A stretch of DNA of 54,440 nucleotides from Chthonomonadaceae bacterium (GTDB lineage: Bacteria; Armatimonadota; Chthonomonadetes; Chthonomonadales; Chthonomonadaceae). Under the pieces are notes generated by a model. That model was given only the letters and a program-made list of their open reading frames with translations, did not search any database and had not been told where the DNA came from. The translations under genes were made by a program, and so were the position numbers. Of this stretch, positions 1,688 to 9,696 are shown one piece after another (the stretch's first letter is position 1; each line of letters starts with the position of its first letter). The stretch lies in assembly GCA_025054835.1 (NCBI GenBank), contig JANWZQ010000084.1, positions 1-54,440 on the forward strand. Direction: 5' to 3'.

Positions 1688-4600
1688 TCAGGAAGCAGAG
1701 CTTCCGTTCTCTTCACCACCCGGTGTCCCTTCTTCTCGTTGCGCCTCCTGACGACGGCGGCCCCGGCCACGCCCTCCACGTCGCCGCCGTCGGCGTCGGG
1801 GTGTGGTCGGATCGCTCCTGTCCAGAAGCCCCGCCAGCGCAGCAGGCGCTGGCGTTGTAGTGGGCACGTCGAGATAATCGAATTCCTCCGGAGGCTCCAG
1901 CTCCAACCCCTCATACGCGCTGATGTCCATGTTCAACACGGCTTCCAGTGTGGCCAGATCATCGGGCGTAGGTTGTGGGTGCTCCGGAGCCTCCTGTTCC
2001 GGAGGACTTGCCACTGCAGACAGGGGTTCCGCCCGGAGCGCGTCCTCTTCGACAGTCTGTTGCACACCGTTGAGCACAATCCGCGCTCTTCCCTCCCCCG
2101 GCAGGGTCAGGTTAGGCAATTCCCACCGCAGCATGCGCTCCAGGGGTGCGACACAGAACAGACGGGTCGTGCCGGCACGCATGAAGAAGCGGTGCTCACG
2201 CGCCTCATCGGCGATGAATTGCTGGCCCCCCAGATCGTACAGAGCGGTCGGCTCCGGCAGTTGCAGAACACGGTGCCCATCGCGCGTTGCATGCAGCATG
2301 ACCCACCCGTCACCAATGGAGACCACATCGTCACCCTGCGGAGTCCAGACATGCACGCCTGCAAAACGGCAGATGCCCCGCAACAACTCCAGAGGTAGAC
2401 AGGGGTCACCAACGAAGACGGATTGCCAGTCCCCCAGTGTTTTGACCGCCAGTGAAGTCAGACCAGACCCCTGATATTCGGCGATGGCAACGGCGTCCGG
2501 ATCATCCACGAAAAACGAAGGATTCAACCGCTCCCGGATCCCGTATTCCCGCTGCGTCATGTATGCTGTCAGGGGATGGTCGGGCTTGAGAACCCGGGAA
2601 CCCAGCTCCGAATTCCACTCCTGCTGGCGCAACGTGATGCCCACTGTTGCTGTCGCGGTCTCTTCCATCACGCCTCCGACGCCCGGCCGCTCCTCACAGG
2701 ATCCCGGCGCGTACAGCCACACCAGTGTCTTGCCATCGCGCTGCAACTTCTCATGGATAGCCTGTCGTTGCTCCACGGTCAGGCGGTAAGGGGTCAGGAA
2801 CAGGTAGAGCCGGGCGCCTGTTGGAAAGCGTGCCGACAGCAGGTCACTCTGCAGATAAACCCCGTAGGAGACCCCGGCGCGTTGCAACACGTCGCGTACC
2901 CCCTGCGTGACCCGCCGGAAGAACGGCTCGCCGCGCTGGATGTGCAGCAGGCTTTTCTCGTCAATCATCGCGATGACGTCCGGGCATCGAGGCCGCTCAT
3001 GATGTCTGAGCACCTGCGCGTAACGGCGGGCGAATCCGCCGATCCGCTCCCACAGACTGTCCTCATCCAGCCATCCCTCGCCCCACAGGTCCATGAACCC
3101 GATCCCGATGTGGTGCGTCAGCGCATATCCCATGGCACGCAGCTGGGCCTGCTCGGTGAGGAAGCGATCTCCCAGACGGGGATTGAAGTCATCTGCCGGT
3201 TGACGGGCGGGCGCAAGGTAGGTTTTGGTGTCGTCTTCCGACATCCAGAGCTTGCCGTGTATGGGAGGCGAGTCGACCGGGGCGGGCAGGGAGGCGGCCC
3301 CACCCGCCTTGCGATCACGGTAGGAGGGCGGGCCACAGATCAGATTGATGGCATTGCAGGAGAGCAGCTGATTCAGTGCCAGATGCCCGCTGAACGGGTG
3401 CCCGAACTCGAAGGTGTAGCCGTAGCAGACCGAGACCAGCGCCTGGTTCTGAGTCGCCTTCTTAACGGCGCGGGCGAGCGCGATTAACCGGCGGGCCGTT
3501 GTTTCCGACGTGAACTCGTTGAAATCGATGTAGCGCCGTTCCCGGCGCGTCTCATAGAAGGCGCGATTCTGATCGGGCTTGAGGATCAGCGGCGGGATCT
3601 CGGCGGTGTGGAACTGCACATCGCCATCGTACCACGCGGCGCGCAGCGCGACCAGGTTGTTATGATATCGCTCACGCAGCCAGTCGCGAAAAGCGTCCCG
3701 ATTGGCAATGCTGCGATCGTAGCCCAGATCTGCTGGCTGGAACCATTCGCCCCGTTCCAGATGGTAGCCAAAAACCCGTCGCCCCCACTCCTGCCGCAGG
3801 ATGTGCGCGATCAGCGTGGTGAGGGAGTGCTCAGCCTCCAGCCAGAAGCGCTCACTGGTGACCGAAGGATCGCCGGTCGTGCCGTCGGCGTAGGTGCTGA
3901 TATCGGTCGGATACTCCCGTTTCCAGCCACGAGCCGGCACAAAAATGATGCGCGGCATCACGTAGCCCTCCGGATCGGCATCCAGCACGGCACGCAGGCG
4001 GCGATCGATCTCGTCCAGCGCGGCACTGTCTTCTGTGATCGGGCAGGGCAGCTCGATCAACGTGGAGTGCAGGTGCACCCCGTGTCGAGCCGCGCGACGG
4101 ATCTGTGAAATCACCCGGGACCGGCTCTTCTCATCCTCCATATTGCCGAAGAAGAGCACCGGCGGATAGGGCACGCCATGGATATGGATCTCCGGGATAC
4201 CCTGCCGGGTGACCAGATGGGCTCCAACGGTGCGGTCTGTAGTTTCCTCTTCCTCCGTGGCGGGAGGGGACGTGACAGTGTCCGGAGCTTCTACACGCCT
4301 GTTACGGTCGCGCGCACGCTCGCGCACACGGCGCCTCCGACCGGTGGCCGGCGCTTCCGGCGTTTCCCTGCCCTTCCCATCGCGCTCTGCAGGCACGCCG
4401 GGGAGTTCTACCTGTGCGTCGAGAACAGGCAGGGCCAGAGGATCCTGCGCATCTGTAACGGGCGCGAGTCCCGCGGGCTCCTGCGAGGTAACTATCTGTT
4501 CCGGTGCGTCTGTCCGGGCCTCGGGTGCCGGCGCGATCTCCTGTGTTGGGGCCGGTTGCACAGGGACGTCCTGCGTGGGAGAGGTGGCCTCTGCAACTTT

Positions 4601-5206
4601 ACGGCGTCTCCGTCGTGGTGTCGTCGGGGGCGACGCTGCACTCTCTGTCGTCGGCATCGGAACGTCGGGCACCGGTTCTGCCGGAGCCGGCGCGTCGGCT
4701 GGTACGGTCTTGCGCGATCGCCGACGCGGTGTTTTCGGCTCAGGCGCCGGGGCCACTTCTGCAGCTCCAGACACCAGTGTGCCTTCCGATACCTCTGTCG
4801 GAGCCCCGGTGTCGGCCGGTACCACAGCACTGGTTTCGATTTTCTTGCGCGAGGACGTGGTGCGGCGGCGTGTTTTCGGCGGCGCAGGGGAAGCGTCTTC
4901 CACGACAGTGGAAGGATCGGACGGGGGCGTTTCAGGCAGTCCGGAGTGCGTTGCATCCGGTTCCAGAGGTGCGGCCGGCACCACAGCGCTTTTGCGGCGA
5001 CTGCGTGAACGTACCGGCACAACGGCAAGTGGATCGGGCCCTTCAGAGGCGGATGCTGCGGCAGTCCCTGCATCGTCGGCGCCGGATCCGGGCGACGGAT
5101 CTGCAGGCGGCGCATCCGCAACAGACGTTTCCGCAGGGAGCGTGTTGCGCGCCAGATCATCCGTTGCTGGCGCCTGCGCACCCGACGGAAACTCGTCGTA
5201 ACTCAT
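1688..5206 (-). CDS. Large GH42-like (TIM-barrel) protein with Arg-rich disordered N- and C-terminal tails
   Basis: 1172 aa. Residues about 1-325 are low-complexity Pro/Ala/Glu/Thr sequence with Arg/Lys clusters near 66-72, 111-122, 158-166, 197-203 and 289-304. From about 328 to 980 it resembles GH42-type beta-galactosidases: a TIM barrel with VFGYHLERGEWF, then FRDWLRERYHNNLVALRAAW, and the segment GKLWMSEDDTKTYLA where a nucleophile Glu could lie, then a Rossmann-like middle domain and a beta-rich end. The last 36 residues are a poly-Arg/RG tail (RRRRRRRGGRGRGRRR). There is no signal peptide, so it is probably cytoplasmic, and the tails suggest nucleic-acid or polyanion binding. The enzymatic role is inferred; catalytic residues need structural confirmation. 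The gene follows accC after 179 bp with its own -10-like element. Confidence 0.75.
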   Translation of the reverse strand: MSYDEFPSGAQAPATDDLARNTLPAETSVADAPPADPSPGSGADDAGTAAASASEGPDPLAVVPVRSRSRRKSAVVPAAPLEPDATHSGLPETPPSDPSTVVEDASPAPPKTRRRTTSSRKKIETSAVVPADTGAPTEVSEGTLVSGAAEVAPAPEPKTPRRRSRKTVPADAPAPAEPVPDVPMPTTESAASPPTTPRRRRRKVAEATSPTQDVPVQPAPTQEIAPAPEARTDAPEQIVTSQEPAGLAPVTDAQDPLALPVLDAQVELPGVPAERDGKGRETPEAPATGRRRRVRERARDRNRRVEAPDTVTSPPATEEEETTDRTVGAHLVTRQGIPEIHIHGVPYPPVLFFGNMEDEKSRSRVISQIRRAARHGVHLHSTLIELPCPITEDSAALDEIDRRLRAVLDADPEGYVMPRIIFVPARGWKREYPTDISTYADGTTGDPSVTSERFWLEAEHSLTTLIAHILRQEWGRRVFGYHLERGEWFQPADLGYDRSIANRDAFRDWLRERYHNNLVALRAAWYDGDVQFHTAEIPPLILKPDQNRAFYETRRERRYIDFNEFTSETTARRLIALARAVKKATQNQALVSVCYGYTFEFGHPFSGHLALNQLLSCNAINLICGPPSYRDRKAGGAASLPAPVDSPPIHGKLWMSEDDTKTYLAPARQPADDFNPRLGDRFLTEQAQLRAMGYALTHHIGIGFMDLWGEGWLDEDSLWERIGGFARRYAQVLRHHERPRCPDVIAMIDEKSLLHIQRGEPFFRRVTQGVRDVLQRAGVSYGVYLQSDLLSARFPTGARLYLFLTPYRLTVEQRQAIHEKLQRDGKTLVWLYAPGSCEERPGVGGVMEETATATVGITLRQQEWNSELGSRVLKPDHPLTAYMTQREYGIRERLNPSFFVDDPDAVAIAEYQGSGLTSLAVKTLGDWQSVFVGDPCLPLELLRGICRFAGVHVWTPQGDDVVSIGDGWVMLHATRDGHRVLQLPEPTALYDLGGQQFIADEAREHRFFMRAGTTRLFCVAPLERMLRWELPNLTLPGEGRARIVLNGVQQTVEEDALRAEPLSAVASPPEQEAPEHPQPTPDDLATLEAVLNMDISAYEGLELEPPEEFDYLDVPTTTPAPAALAGLLDRSDPTTPRRRRRRRGGRGRGRRRQEAQREEGTPGGEENGSSAS

Positions 5207-5385: not shown

Positions 5386-6741
5386 TCAGGGCTGGTTGCT
5401 GGCGAAGATCCGGCGCTGGATGAAGTCGGTAGTCAGTTCGCCCCGCCGGTAGTACGCGTTGGAAACGATCTTGCGGCAGAAGGCAATGTTGGTCTTGATG
5501 CCCCGGATTTCCATTTCCTGCAGACAGCGTTGCATGCGTGTGATCGCCGCGGGGCGATCTTTCTCCCAGACGATCACCTTGGCCAGCAGGGGGTCGTAGT
5601 ATGGTGGGACCATGTAGCCAGCATGGATATGCGTGTCCACACGAACGCCGGGGCCTCCGGGCAGCACCAGATGCTCGATACACCCGGCGCTGGGCATGAA
5701 TTCGCGCTCGGGTTCTTCGGCGTTGATGCGGCACTCGATGGCATGTCCATGGAACGTGATCTGCTTCTGACTGAAGGGGAGGCGCTCACCGGCGGCGATA
5801 CGGATCTGCTGTTGCACCAGATCGATCCCGGTGATCATCTCCGTCACGCAGTGCTCCACCTGCAACCGCTTGTTCATCTCCATGAAATAGAAGTTGTCGT
5901 GCGCGTCTACGAGGAACTCGATGGTGCCTGCGTTGACGTACCCGATCGCTCTGGCCGCTCGCACCGCAGCCTCGCCCATGCGTCGGCGCAGATCCGGCGA
6001 GATCCCGACGGCCAGTGCCTCCTCGATGATCTTCTGGCGCCGCGGGGACTGGATGGAGCACTCGCGCTCGCCCAGATGTACCACGTTGCCGTGCGCGTCC
6101 GCCAGCACCTGCACCTCCACGTGACGCGGCTCCTCGATAAGCTTCTCCAGGTAGACCTCGGCCCGGCCAAACGCGGCAGCTGCCTCCGCACGGGCCATCT
6201 CCAGAGCGCGTGGCAACTCGTCTTCGTTCTGCACCAGACGAATGCCCCGCCCTCCACCACCGAATGCGGCTTTGACCAGCAGGGGATAGCCGTACTTCTG
6301 GGCAAACGCGAGCGCCTCCTGATCGTTGTTCAACGCGGGCGTACCCGGGACCACTGGAACACCTGCCTTCTGCATGGTAGCGCGCGCGGTCGCCTTGTCG
6401 CCCATCGCTTCCATGGCCTCGGCGGGAGGTCCGATGAACTTGACGTGGCACATCTCGCAGGCCTCGGCGAAGCTGGGGCGCTCCGACAGGAATCCGATGC
6501 CGGGATGGATCGCCTCGGCGCCGGTGATGTGCGCGGCACTGATGATGTTATGCGCGTGCAGGTAACTGTCTTTGGGGGGAGGTGGACCGATGCAGATGGC
6601 TTCATCTGCCAGCCGCACCGGCAGAGAGTCGGCATCCGCAGTGGAGTAGGCCACCACGGTACGGATCTTCATCTCCCGGCAGGCCCGGAGGATCCGCAGG
6701 GCGATTTCGCCACGATTTGCAATCAGGATCTTCTTGAACAT
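5386..6741 (-). CDS. accC: Biotin carboxylase AccC-like ATP-grasp protein with altered active-site motifs
   Basis: 451 aa, normal length for the biotin carboxylase subunit of acetyl-CoA carboxylase, which carboxylates biotin on BCCP using ATP and bicarbonate. Conserved: GDKATARATMQKAG, the GGGGRG glycine loop (KAAFGGGGRGIR), PRHVEVQVLAD, RINAEEP and PPYYDPLLAKVI. Odd: the usual CSxQRRxQK motif reads CSIQSPRRQK (residues 228-237), one residue longer; EEAP reads EEAL; and the usual EMNTR(I/L)QVEHPVTE reads EMNKRLQVEHCVTE. The bicarbonate/ATP ligands Glu, Asn, Arg and Glu of that motif and the Lys after Q236 are kept, so some catalysis is plausible. Its ATG directly follows the stop of the pseudopilin gene. 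Taken with the AccB neighbour lacking its biotin Lys, the partner and substrate are uncertain. Confidence 0.85.
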   Translation of the reverse strand: MFKKILIANRGEIALRILRACREMKIRTVVAYSTADADSLPVRLADEAICIGPPPPKDSYLHAHNIISAAHITGAEAIHPGIGFLSERPSFAEACEMCHVKFIGPPAEAMEAMGDKATARATMQKAGVPVVPGTPALNNDQEALAFAQKYGYPLLVKAAFGGGGRGIRLVQNEDELPRALEMARAEAAAAFGRAEVYLEKLIEEPRHVEVQVLADAHGNVVHLGERECSIQSPRRQKIIEEALAVGISPDLRRRMGEAAVRAARAIGYVNAGTIEFLVDAHDNFYFMEMNKRLQVEHCVTEMITGIDLVQQQIRIAAGERLPFSQKQITFHGHAIECRINAEEPEREFMPSAGCIEHLVLPGGPGVRVDTHIHAGYMVPPYYDPLLAKVIVWEKDRPAAITRMQRCLQEMEIRGIKTNIAFCRKIVSNAYYRRGELTTDFIQRRIFASNQP

Positions 6742-7134
6742 TCAGAAATTCTCATGTCCTGGATGGACACAGCGCACCGCGCCGGTCTCTGGTTCATACT
6801 GGTAGGGCTCCCCGCCCACGGCGCAGGTGAGGAGCTCTGCAGGCAATCGCAGCTCCTGCAGGGATCGGGGCAGTGTCTCTTCCGGGTCGCCAGCGCGGAA
6901 CACGTTCACTGCCTGACGCACCTGCCCGAGGTTGCTCTGACACACGGTGTCTTTTGCCACGGTGATCGGGGTGCGCGCCCGCGTGCCGTCGGGCTTCTCG
7001 CGTCCGCCGCGTCCCAGATAGAAGTAGGCCAGCCCGCCACCAATCAGCACGAGCAGAGCCACCACCAGCAGCACTTCGATCAGGGAGAAACCGGCGTGAC
7101 GCAGCGCGCGCGCACCGGATCTATGGCTGCACAT
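6742..7134 (-). CDS. Type II secretion/type IV pilin-like pseudopilin between accB and accC
   Basis: 130 aa with a short basic leader and the prepilin cleavage and methylation motif GFSLIEVLLVVALLVLIGGG, then a single hydrophobic helix and a C-terminal periplasmic domain with two cysteines (CQSNLGQVRQAVNVF and LLTCAVGGEP) and another near the end (GAVRCVHPG). This is the architecture of GspG/H-like pseudopilins or minor pilins, processed by a prepilin peptidase and assembled at the inner membrane. The accB stop TGA (7136-7134) shares its final A with the ATG, and the pilin stop abuts the accC ATG, so translation of the three genes is coupled. A GTG at 7137 is an alternative start. No other secretion or pilus gene is in the window. 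Confidence 0.85.
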   Translation of the reverse strand: MCSHRSGARALRHAGFSLIEVLLVVALLVLIGGGLAYFYLGRGGREKPDGTRARTPITVAKDTVCQSNLGQVRQAVNVFRAGDPEETLPRSLQELRLPAELLTCAVGGEPYQYEPETGAVRCVHPGHENF

Positions 7135-7604
7135 CACGCTACTCCTCCGGGCTCACTCGCAGGGCAGACCTGTAATGCAAAGAGCCGTTGTCCGTACTCC
7201 ACAGCGACTCCGTCCTCGATCATCACGTCGGTCACCACCCCCCCTTCGCTCGCCTGCACCTCATGTGCCAGGTTCATCGACTCGATTACCCCCACGACCT
7301 GTCCGGCTTTCACGGTAGCTCCCAGCCCGACCACCGGATTGACGTGGCGAAACACTCCGACCAGAGGCGCGGTCACAAAGAAGATCTGTTCCTCTCGTGC
7401 ATCTTCTGTGTCTTCCAGAAGCGTCTCTTGCAGATCTTCTATGGCCTCAGCGTCTGGATCCTCGCTGGCGAGGAGTATCGAGGGCTCTCCCGCAGAGACC
7501 GACTTGCGCAGAGTGATCCGGGCGTCTCCCTGACGCAACGTCAGTTCACGAATATTGGCCTTCTGCACCATGGCGGCCAGCCGTTCCAGCTCTTCCAGAT
7601 CCAT
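7134..7604 (-). CDS. accB: AccB-like biotinyl-domain protein lacking the biotinylated lysine
   Basis: 156 aa with the AccB layout: an N-terminal helical segment (MDLEELERLAAMVQKANIRE) and ITLRKS strand, an acidic linker (about 40-75), then a hammerhead biotinyl domain (APLVGVF, GATVKAGQVVGVIESMNLAH, DGVAVEYGQRLFAL). BCCP normally carries biotin on the Lys of E-(A/S)-M-K. Here the codon at 7274-7272 is AAC, so residue 111 is Asn. The rest of the domain is well conserved. If the base is correct the protein cannot be biotinylated at this site. It could be a regulatory pseudo-BCCP, comparable to plant BADC proteins, or serve an unknown role with the divergent AccC downstream. A single sequencing error (AAG to AAC) is the main alternative. 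Confidence 0.85.
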   Translation of the reverse strand: MDLEELERLAAMVQKANIRELTLRQGDARITLRKSVSAGEPSILLASEDPDAEAIEDLQETLLEDTEDAREEQIFFVTAPLVGVFRHVNPVVGLGATVKAGQVVGVIESMNLAHEVQASEGGVVTDVMIEDGVAVEYGQRLFALQVCPASEPGGVA

Positions 7605-7711: not shown

Positions 7712-8920
7712 TCACACTTTCAGGCGAAACACCAGATACTCGAGGAAGCGTAGCGCCCACGTCATCAACACCAGTGTGAAGCTCACTATCAGGATGACTT
7801 CCACGGGCAGAGATCCGGTAACGTTGCGGGTGAGATCGGAAGCACCTGTGTTGGAGAAAGTCAGACGCCCGATCACCGTATCCAGCGTGCGGAGCAGGGT
7901 GGCGATCAGTCCGCGCAGATTCTCAAATTGCCAGAACACCAGCACCGGCACCGCCAGAGTGACCACGGGCGACAGCAACTGGTATTTCAGTCGTTGGTGT
8001 TCGTTGTAGATGATGCAGTTCTGACATCGCATCCGCTTCTGCGCTTCGGTCAGATGCGGATTGGTCGGGATGCGCACTCCACGGGGCCCCGGACGCGTCG
8101 GGATCTTTTTGCGCTCCTCCTGCTCGCTTTTGGCGATCAGGTCCCCGATGGGCACAAAGCCGGACTGCTTGCTCATGTCCGCAGGCGGTTCGGTGCCCTC
8201 ATCGCCGCCCATGGCCAGACGGATGACATTCTCTTCGCACATGCACCCGATGCGCTCTTTCCAGCACCTTGTGCGCGCGTGATAGATCGGACACTTCTTG
8301 CGCAGACTCTCCCGACAGAAGGGCAGCTGCCAGCACTTGGCAAACGCACCGATCAGTGCGGAGGGTTGACCGGCCTCCTGCTTCGCGTCTTTCCCGTAAG
8401 TGACCGCAGTCAGATCCTCCTGCCTGCCGGAGAAGATCCGTACTGCCATGCTGCGCAGCACCAGCAGAATGCCCGGCGCGCCAATCAATATGGCAGCCAG
8501 ATGGATCTCACGCAGAGTCGCCTCGGACACTCTGCCGGACATCAGGCGCGCTTTGTCCGATGTGAACAGGAAGTCCATGAGGAACTGCAGACCGAACGCC
8601 AGAAACGCCCCGAGCAGCACCAGTGCCCAGCCCAGAGAGTCCTCATCGTAGTAGAGAAAGATCGCGCTGATCAGGGTCAGGACCAGACTGATGTTCAACG
8701 CCAGCGAGAGGGTCCCGATCGTCTGCAGAGCCTGCTGTACTTCCGCGGGCGACTGGTTCGCCACATCGGCCAGCTTGCCTGTGAAAAGCCCCCAGAGCAG
8801 ATAGAGCATCAGCGCTCCGCTGACGACCACTCCCAGCTGAAACACCTTCATTGCAATGTCGCTGAGAGAGTCATAGAGAGAGCCAGAATGGCCGCCCCCG
8901 GCGCGTTGCACGTTAGACAC
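7712..8920 (-). CDS. Multi-spanning membrane protein with a central two-CW-like cysteine motif
   Basis: 402 aa, unrecognised as a whole. Hydrophobic helices lie near 27-48, 70-90, 97-118 and 139-160, then a soluble centre (about 165-315), then two more near 320-340 and 375-400. The centre has Cys196, 202, 210, 219, 226 and 228 in a CW-C-CPIY-CW arrangement (CWQLPFC, KKCPIYHARTRCW), the pattern of the two-CW motif found in some bacterial signalling proteins, and later a CQNC pair (299/302). These could bind a metal or Fe-S cluster, or form disulfides. Start is the GTG at 8920 with GGGGA upstream. It sits between efp and accB on the same strand, within a cluster that elsewhere is often simply efp-accB-accC. 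Function unknown. Confidence 0.75.
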   Translation of the reverse strand: MSNVQRAGGGHSGSLYDSLSDIAMKVFQLGVVVSGALMLYLLWGLFTGKLADVANQSPAEVQQALQTIGTLSLALNISLVLTLISAIFLYYDEDSLGWALVLLGAFLAFGLQFLMDFLFTSDKARLMSGRVSEATLREIHLAAILIGAPGILLVLRSMAVRIFSGRQEDLTAVTYGKDAKQEAGQPSALIGAFAKCWQLPFCRESLRKKCPIYHARTRCWKERIGCMCEENVIRLAMGGDEGTEPPADMSKQSGFVPIGDLIAKSEQEERKKIPTRPGPRGVRIPTNPHLTEAQKRMRCQNCIIYNEHQRLKYQLLSPVVTLAVPVLVFWQFENLRGLIATLLRTLDTVIGRLTFSNTGASDLTRNVTGSLPVEVILIVSFTLVLMTWALRFLEYLVFRLKV

Positions 8921-8966: not shown

Positions 8967-9533
8967 CTACTTGACCCGTTCCAGATAGGTGTCAGTGCGC
9001 GTGTCCACCTTCACCCGATCTCCGATGTTCACGAAGAAGGGCACGTTGATGACCGCCCCGGTCTCCAGAGTTGCCGGCTTGGAGCCTCCAGCCGCCGTGT
9101 CGCCCCGCACACCGGGTTCCGTATCGGTTACGGTTAGCTCGACGAAGAAGGGCACCTCCGCACCGAGGATCTTGCCGTTGTACTCGATGACGTTGACCTC
9201 CATGCCGTCCTTGAGATACTTGATGGACTCGCCGAAGGTGCTACCGCTGACGCTCACCTGCTCGTAGGTCTCGGGATGCATCAGCACGTACTCGTCATCC
9301 TGTTTATACAGGTACTGCATGGGGTAGCGTTCCAGGATCGCCTGCTCGAACCGCTCGCCCGCGTTGAAGGTCCGATCGATCACGGCGCCCGTGCGGAGGT
9401 TCTTGAGCTTGGTGCGCATCACAGCACCGCCCTTGCCAGGCTTGTGGTGCTGGAACCAGACGATGGTGTAGATCTCACCGTCCAGGATGATGGAAACGCC
9501 ATTTTTGAAGTCGGCGGTATCAATTTTTGGCAC
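8967..9533 (-). CDS. efp: Translation elongation factor P
   Basis: 188 aa. EF-P binds the ribosome between P and E sites and relieves stalling at polyproline stretches. The start is the GTG at 9533 (VPKIDTADFKNGVSI), set by AGGAGA 7 nt upstream and the normal family length; the open frame further upstream is not EF-P-like. The three-domain layout is clear: KOW-like domain 1 with the modification-loop HKPGKGGA (Lys34), then YLYKQDDEYVLMHPETYEQ, then a C-terminal OB domain ending NVPFFVNIGDRVKVDTRTDTY. A Lys at position 34 is compatible with lysyl-type modification, but no modification enzyme gene is nearby. Neighbouring proteins have several Pro-rich tracts that would make EF-P useful. Confidence 0.95.
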   Translation of the reverse strand: MPKIDTADFKNGVSIILDGEIYTIVWFQHHKPGKGGAVMRTKLKNLRTGAVIDRTFNAGERFEQAILERYPMQYLYKQDDEYVLMHPETYEQVSVSGSTFGESIKYLKDGMEVNVIEYNGKILGAEVPFFVELTVTDTEPGVRGDTAAGGSKPATLETGAVINVPFFVNIGDRVKVDTRTDTYLERVK

Positions 9534-9611
9534 CGTCGTATCTCCTGAATGAGCCCTGCGTCCTCCGGATCCCGAAGGAGCGCGCTTCTCAAAAGCTCCG
9601 TATAGCAGGTG

Positions 9612-9617
9612 ATTATA
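9612..9617 (-). promoter_or_regulatory. Extended -10 promoter element for efp
   Basis: On the minus strand the sequence TGCTATAAT forms a consensus extended -10 (TATAAT at 9617-9612). A poor -35 (TTGCGG, about 19 nt away) is consistent with an extended -10 promoter. The predicted start is about 70 nt upstream of the efp GTG. It would drive efp and probably the accB-pilin-accC genes. Confidence 0.55.
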
Positions 9618-9690
9618 GCATACCCGACCCGGAACCCGCAAGCAAGCGCCCGTGATGCCGGGGCGCGTACAGATCCCCCGGGCAGCAGGG

Positions 9691-9696
9691 TACAAT
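9691..9696 (+). promoter_or_regulatory. Candidate -10 element for the dockerin nuclease-like gene
   Basis: TACAAT lies 55 nt upstream of the ATG at 9751 in the divergent efp intergenic region. No convincing -35 is visible, so this is tentative. Confidence 0.35.

Follow-up and report, generated by a model that had tools for sequence, protein, structure and literature searches.

AccB2, an AccB paralogue without the biotinyl lysine in the accC cluster of Armatimonadota: a possible bacterial counterpart of plant BADC proteins

Acetyl-CoA carboxylase (ACC) commits carbon to fatty acids, and its regulation in bacteria is only partly understood. A biotin carboxyl carrier protein (BCCP) lacking the biotinyl lysine is unable to carry CO2 at the usual position, and the question that we address here is what such a protein might be doing next to the gene for biotin carboxylase (BC). 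The case is a 54,440-nucleotide stretch of DNA from a Chthonomonadaceae bacterium (hereafter the window; contig C170 of a 3.7 Mb genome that is 97% complete), for which a preliminary description had reported an AccB homologue with asparagine in place of the biotinyl lysine, encoded beside accC. The first part of this description was borne out: the open reading frame is real and codes for a full-length AccB homologue, and reading its translation directly gives the hairpin I-E-S-M-N-L-A-H, with residue 111 being Asn (codon AAC). The second part was borne out too: the gene, accB2, lies near an intact accC, with a prepilin-like gene sitting between the two (Table 1).

Table 1. Coordinates of accB2, its parts and its neighbours in the window
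Feature	Position	Strand	Basis or remark
accB2, BCCP paralogue without biotinyl lysine, 156 aa	7134..7604	(-)	profile matches
ESMN motif, biotinylation hairpin, residues 108-111	7272..7283	(-)	Asn codon AAC at 7274-7272
N-terminal helix and beta hairpin, residues 1-33, conserved AccB N-terminal region	7506..7604	(-)	model and profile
Hammerhead (biotinyl) barrel, residues 76-145, without thumb insertion	7170..7379	(-)	Pfam, alignment, model, Foldseek
accC, biotin carboxylase, catalytic residues kept	5386..6741	(-)	over TIGR00514 cut-off
Prepilin-like gene between accB2 and accC	6742..7137	(-)	profile match
Gene with hydrophobic stretches, 402 aa, usually between efp and accB2	7712..8920	(-)	position
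efp, elongation factor P	8967..9695	(-)	profile match

AccB2 is built as an AccB throughout: an AccB-type N-terminal region is followed by an acidic linker of low conservation and then by the hammerhead barrel, with a Pfam Biotin_lipoyl match at residues 77-144 (1.4e-11). The BCCP model TIGR00531 aligns to residues 1-144 with 79 bits, which is less than the cut-off of 115.2; this shortfall is weak as a criterion, since the canonical paralogue of the same genome, AccB1, likewise scores under the cut-off (100.6 bits). A profile of AccB2 and its orthologues aligns over positions 1-140 (E 1.1e-33) with the full-length Escherichia coli AccB of 4hr7, a crystal structure of BCCP with BC, and a profile of the AccB N-terminal region finds matches across the AccB2 set. 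In good agreement, a monomer model of modest confidence (overall pLDDT 63, built from three sequences) consists of a helix at residues 3-15 and strands at 20-25 and 28-33 (pLDDT about 63-70) followed by the barrel (about 70-82), and its best Foldseek matches are all BCCPs (5gua, 2evb, 1bdo and 4hr7). Two features of a functional BCCP are, however, absent from the window protein: the biotinylatable lysine of the E-A/S-M-K motif, here ESMN, and the thumb, where alignment to AccB1 leaves a five-residue gap. Judging from the established chemistry of biotinylation, Asn111 would leave AccB2 of the window unmodified.

The preliminary description had proposed a search of the genome for a second accB with the normal motif, and such a gene was found: a canonical AccB1 (EAMKV, thumb present) is encoded on contig C84 (G000:C84). 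This rules out AccB2 as the sole AccB of the genome, and since AccB1 is present, AccB2 would not be the carrier of this organism's ACC, for which AccB1 is the obvious candidate. The accA and accD genes reside on contig C39, both scoring over their cut-offs, and birA is present as well. The genome holds three BC genes: accC of the window, which exceeds the TIGR00514 accC equivalog cut-off (656 vs 626.5 bits), a paralogue on C67 that stays under it (588.8 bits), and a third on C46, within a long frame that encodes several domains, a biotinyl domain among them.

How widespread is this arrangement? In a first sample of Armatimonadota all 61 genomes searched yielded a match, usually two per genome, and the aligned matches sort into two groups, AccB1 and AccB2; a second phylum-wide sample raised AccB2 to 119 loci from 38 families. 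AccB1 keeps the lysine in 56 out of 56 cases. AccB2, by contrast, has lysine at 47 loci, glycine at 29, arginine at 22, asparagine at 6, aspartate at 5, threonine at 4 and serine and histidine at 3 each. Thus, while AccB2 shares with canonical bacterial AccB (TIGR00531) the two-part architecture and the full-length profile match to the E. coli protein, it differs from it in the lack of lysine (72/119 loci), in the lack of a thumb in many members and, in the window, in a score under the curated cut-off. The distance to the site is 29 in AccB1 and 24 in most Lys-bearing and one third of Lys-less AccB2. By family, 22 of the 38 have no member with lysine (e.g. f14, 8/8 Gly; f6, 6/6 Gly; f22, 5/5 Arg; f15 and f28, also devoid of any lysine), six are mixed and ten carry lysine throughout (among them f8, f24 and f31-f33).

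This distribution bears directly on whether the asparagine codon is a sequencing or assembly error. The missing lysine of the window is read from one genome, and AAC is one base away from AAG; recurrence at 71 other loci of the phylum nevertheless leads us to reject a single-base AAC/AAG error, and with seven different residues overall and many codons at least two changes away from AAA or AAG, we regard an error of any kind at this codon as barely credible.

In the first sample, AccB1 is present in every Lys-less genome that is at least 90% complete. A repeated search of genomes seemingly devoid of AccB1 recovered it in G032, G044 and G057 and gave no clear AccB1 in G012, G019 and G058 (93%, 64% and 80% complete, respectively); AccB2 of G012 has the lysine. 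Note that AccB2 of families f11, f22 and f30 (e.g. L074, L140 and L257) reads EALRK or EALGK, with a lysine one residue past the site and the hairpin length unchanged. The absence of modification is less certain in these families, the window protein not being among them, since the later lysine could pass for a shifted site. The xALG forms appear to be a distinct end state that was reached more than once.

In the AccB tree of the first sample a single branch divides AccB1 from AccB2 (support 97, or 71 with AccB of Clostridia placed on the AccB1 side), which makes the duplication older than the families. On the AccC tree, a quick tree with many weak forks that makes all counts of changes approximate, the lysine/non-lysine state changed at least 15 times and the residue letters 25 times; were lysine ancestral and never regained, 17 losses would be required. 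The preliminary description had asked whether asparagine is conserved among relatives and had held that lysine in related genomes would undo its reading. Asparagine itself is not conserved, while loss of the lysine does recur, and lysine is indeed found in 7 of the 15 members of the window's own family, including the neighbour G005. Its partial presence there does not overturn the reading of AccB2 as a lysine-less paralogue, because the site changed at least 15 times and the canonical paralogue never lost its lysine.

Repeated, scattered loss at the same site could also mean that AccB2 is a redundant second carrier on its way out, with the loss of lysine being neutral decay since AccB1, always with its lysine, suffices. 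The residues flanking the site are relaxed, as this explanation would have it: the Met just before the site is found in 31 of 72 Lys-less AccB2, compared with 40 of 47 AccB2 that have lysine and with 55 of 56 AccB1. Site 111 itself ranks 47th of the 68 barrel columns by conservation in AccB2 and is invariant in AccB1. From these alignments, the recognition context around the site is seen to decay after the lysine is lost. The rest of the protein behaves differently. Nei-Gojobori estimates on congeneric or near pairs of Lys-less AccB2, several of them with saturated dS, give dN/dS of 0.05-0.13 (g2, g23), 0.22 (G017/G019), 0.23 (G021/G029) and 0.30 (G031/G045), similar to those of AccB1 in such of these pairs as have the AccB1 sequence from both members. 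Lys-less AccB2 is maintained by purifying selection. Furthermore, reading frames are intact in families that are entirely Lys-less (f14, f6, f22, f28 and f15), and the place and order of the gene are conserved over the phylum, to a depth at which pseudogenes would not last. The dN/dS values together with synteny lead us to reject a pseudogene and contradict simple decay, and we consider a carrier losing its function to be highly improbable.

The gene order efp-(membrane gene)-accB2-prepilin-accC is conserved across the phylum. Of the 119 AccB2 loci, 107 have accC nearby, 106 a prepilin-like gene, 99 efp and 70 the membrane gene; contig ends account for some of the absences. In the window, accB2 and the prepilin-like gene share four nucleotides (GTGA) and the stop codon of the latter directly abuts the ATG of accC, which makes it probable that accB2, the prepilin-like gene and accC are translationally coupled. 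The product of the membrane gene had no match in Pfam or NCBIfam. In the efp frame, EFP homology begins near residue 58, and the true start is probably internal to the annotated frame. The prepilin-like gene, usually between accB2 and accC, is an odd and long-standing partner for an operon of fatty-acid synthesis. Elsewhere in the window, positions 1688-5206 hold a 1172-aa frame whose N-terminal part is long and rich in Pro and Ala and whose C-terminus is Arg-rich.

Such conserved company raises the possibility that AccB2 acts outside ACC, for instance with the prepilin-like gene or the membrane gene, both of which recur beside it. Its tightest linkage is nevertheless to accC, the BC of ACC, and AccB2 retains the barrel as well as the AccB N-terminal region, so we hold a role outside ACC to be improbable. 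AccC itself has intact active-site segments (the ATP-grasp glycines, the Lys of the R-H-Q-K loop, E-M-N-x-R-x-Q-V-E-H and G-V-R), whether or not AccB2 of the species has the lysine. The AccC catalytic loop is one residue longer in most of the phylum (ECSIQSPRRQK in the window vs ECSIQRRHQK in a paralogous BC, L178:3851-5422), and in the first sample this insertion is absent from f4, f11, f12, f22 and G049.

In Firmicutes, among others, accB likewise adjoins accC (PMC5437119), and an AccB of Clostridia that adjoins accC (L042) has the VEYG segment in common with AccB2. In the first sample, the stretch examined around each AccB1 gene contains no accC. Since adjacency of accB and accC is ordinary, it is the copy in the ordinary place that lost the lysine and the solitary copy that kept it.

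The preliminary description had compared the Lys-less AccB with the BADC proteins of plants, and on the side of distribution, paralogy, synteny and purifying selection the comparison gains support, with the regulator function as its putative side. BADCs are BCCP homologues without the biotinylation lysine that occur beside true BCCP, to which they are 25-30% identical; they bind both BC and BCCP and are reported as an inhibitor that competes for BC and as an assembly glue (PMC11926652; PMC7712654). Similarly to BADC1-3 of the heteromeric plastid ACC, AccB2 is a hammerhead BCCP homologue that lacks the lysine with a canonical BCCP alongside, and by sequence it coexists with a multi-subunit ACC (AccB1, accA, accD, accC and birA). 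Unlike BADC, AccB2 is bacterial, is encoded in the accC cluster, and has lost its lysine many times while keeping it in some lineages. The Lys-bearing AccB2 orthologues within the same phylum suggest an origin independent of the plant BADC lineage. There is also a point against a BADC-like reading: BADC3 of Arabidopsis contacts the thumb of its partner BCCP, and AccB2 often lacks this feature. The partner candidate here, AccB1, retains it.

We infer, and consider reasonably probable, that AccB2 of the window carries no biotin and serves AccC as a structural or regulatory partner, working like plant BADC. AccB2 would be made together with AccC and would bind it, and probably AccB1 too, with the contacts made by the AccB-type N-terminal region as well as by the empty hammerhead domain. 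Bound in this way, it would set the occupancy of AccC by biotinylated AccB1 or keep the AccC-AccB1 subcomplex together, while CO2 would be carried by AccB1, encoded elsewhere; its effect could be that of an assembly aid or that of a brake. The wider proposition is one to which we give an even chance: that Armatimonadota possess a BADC-like ACC subunit which arose by an ancient accB duplication, after which the copy in the accC cluster turned into a non-biotinylated regulator or scaffold and shed its lysine some 15 or more times, in parallel to the plant plastid enzyme. Lys-bearing AccB2 (about 40%) may be a working second carrier in the lineages that have it, and the ancestral function common to AccB2 need not be BADC-like.

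The main rival to a partner of AccC is that, after AccB1 took over carriage, AccB2 was kept solely as a biotin-independent autoregulator of the efp-accB2-accC cluster. Autoregulation of accBC has been proposed for E. coli AccB, which when overexpressed represses accBC through its N-terminal domain (PMC3896788; PMC11602165). AccB2, for its part, is encoded within the accC cluster and has retained the N-terminal region. If only the N-terminal region mattered, however, there would be no need for the hammerhead, whose barrel glycines together with the VEYGQ segment are the best-conserved portion of AccB2 (G83, G95, G122, V135, E136, G138 and L141 vary little or not at all). Moreover, even E. coli AccB is without a known DNA-binding motif (PMC11602165). 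We therefore regard autoregulation as the sole function as rather unlikely.

Other non-catalytic proteins associated with carboxylases offer looser comparisons with an AccC partner of this kind. YqhY, encoded by the third gene of the Bacillus subtilis accBC-yqhY operon, is a proposed ACC modulator (PMC5437119); like AccB2 it is encoded with accC, but by description it belongs to the Asp23 family and is not an AccB homologue. Bacterial acyl-CoA carboxylases have non-catalytic 'glue' subunits needed for assembly and activation, as mentioned in PMC11926652, and by this description they resemble the role proposed for AccB2. Chloroflexus is ruled out as a precedent, since the BCCPs in the Chloroflexus ACC paper retain the E-X-M-K-M motif. 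In the open-access part of the literature that was searched we found no description of a Lys-less bacterial AccB.

As read from these genomes, most of Armatimonadota keeps an accC-linked AccB2 from which the lysine has been lost repeatedly while selection persists. A word of caution follows for annotation: an accB adjoining accC is not necessarily the biotin carrier. Lys-bearing and Lys-less orthologues in neighbouring genera constitute a natural experiment on an empty BCCP, and the AccB2 proteins are producible in E. coli. AccB2 recalls a regulator or assembly factor whose only described examples come from plants; a 2025 paper calls BADC proteins unique to the plant enzyme (PMC11926652).
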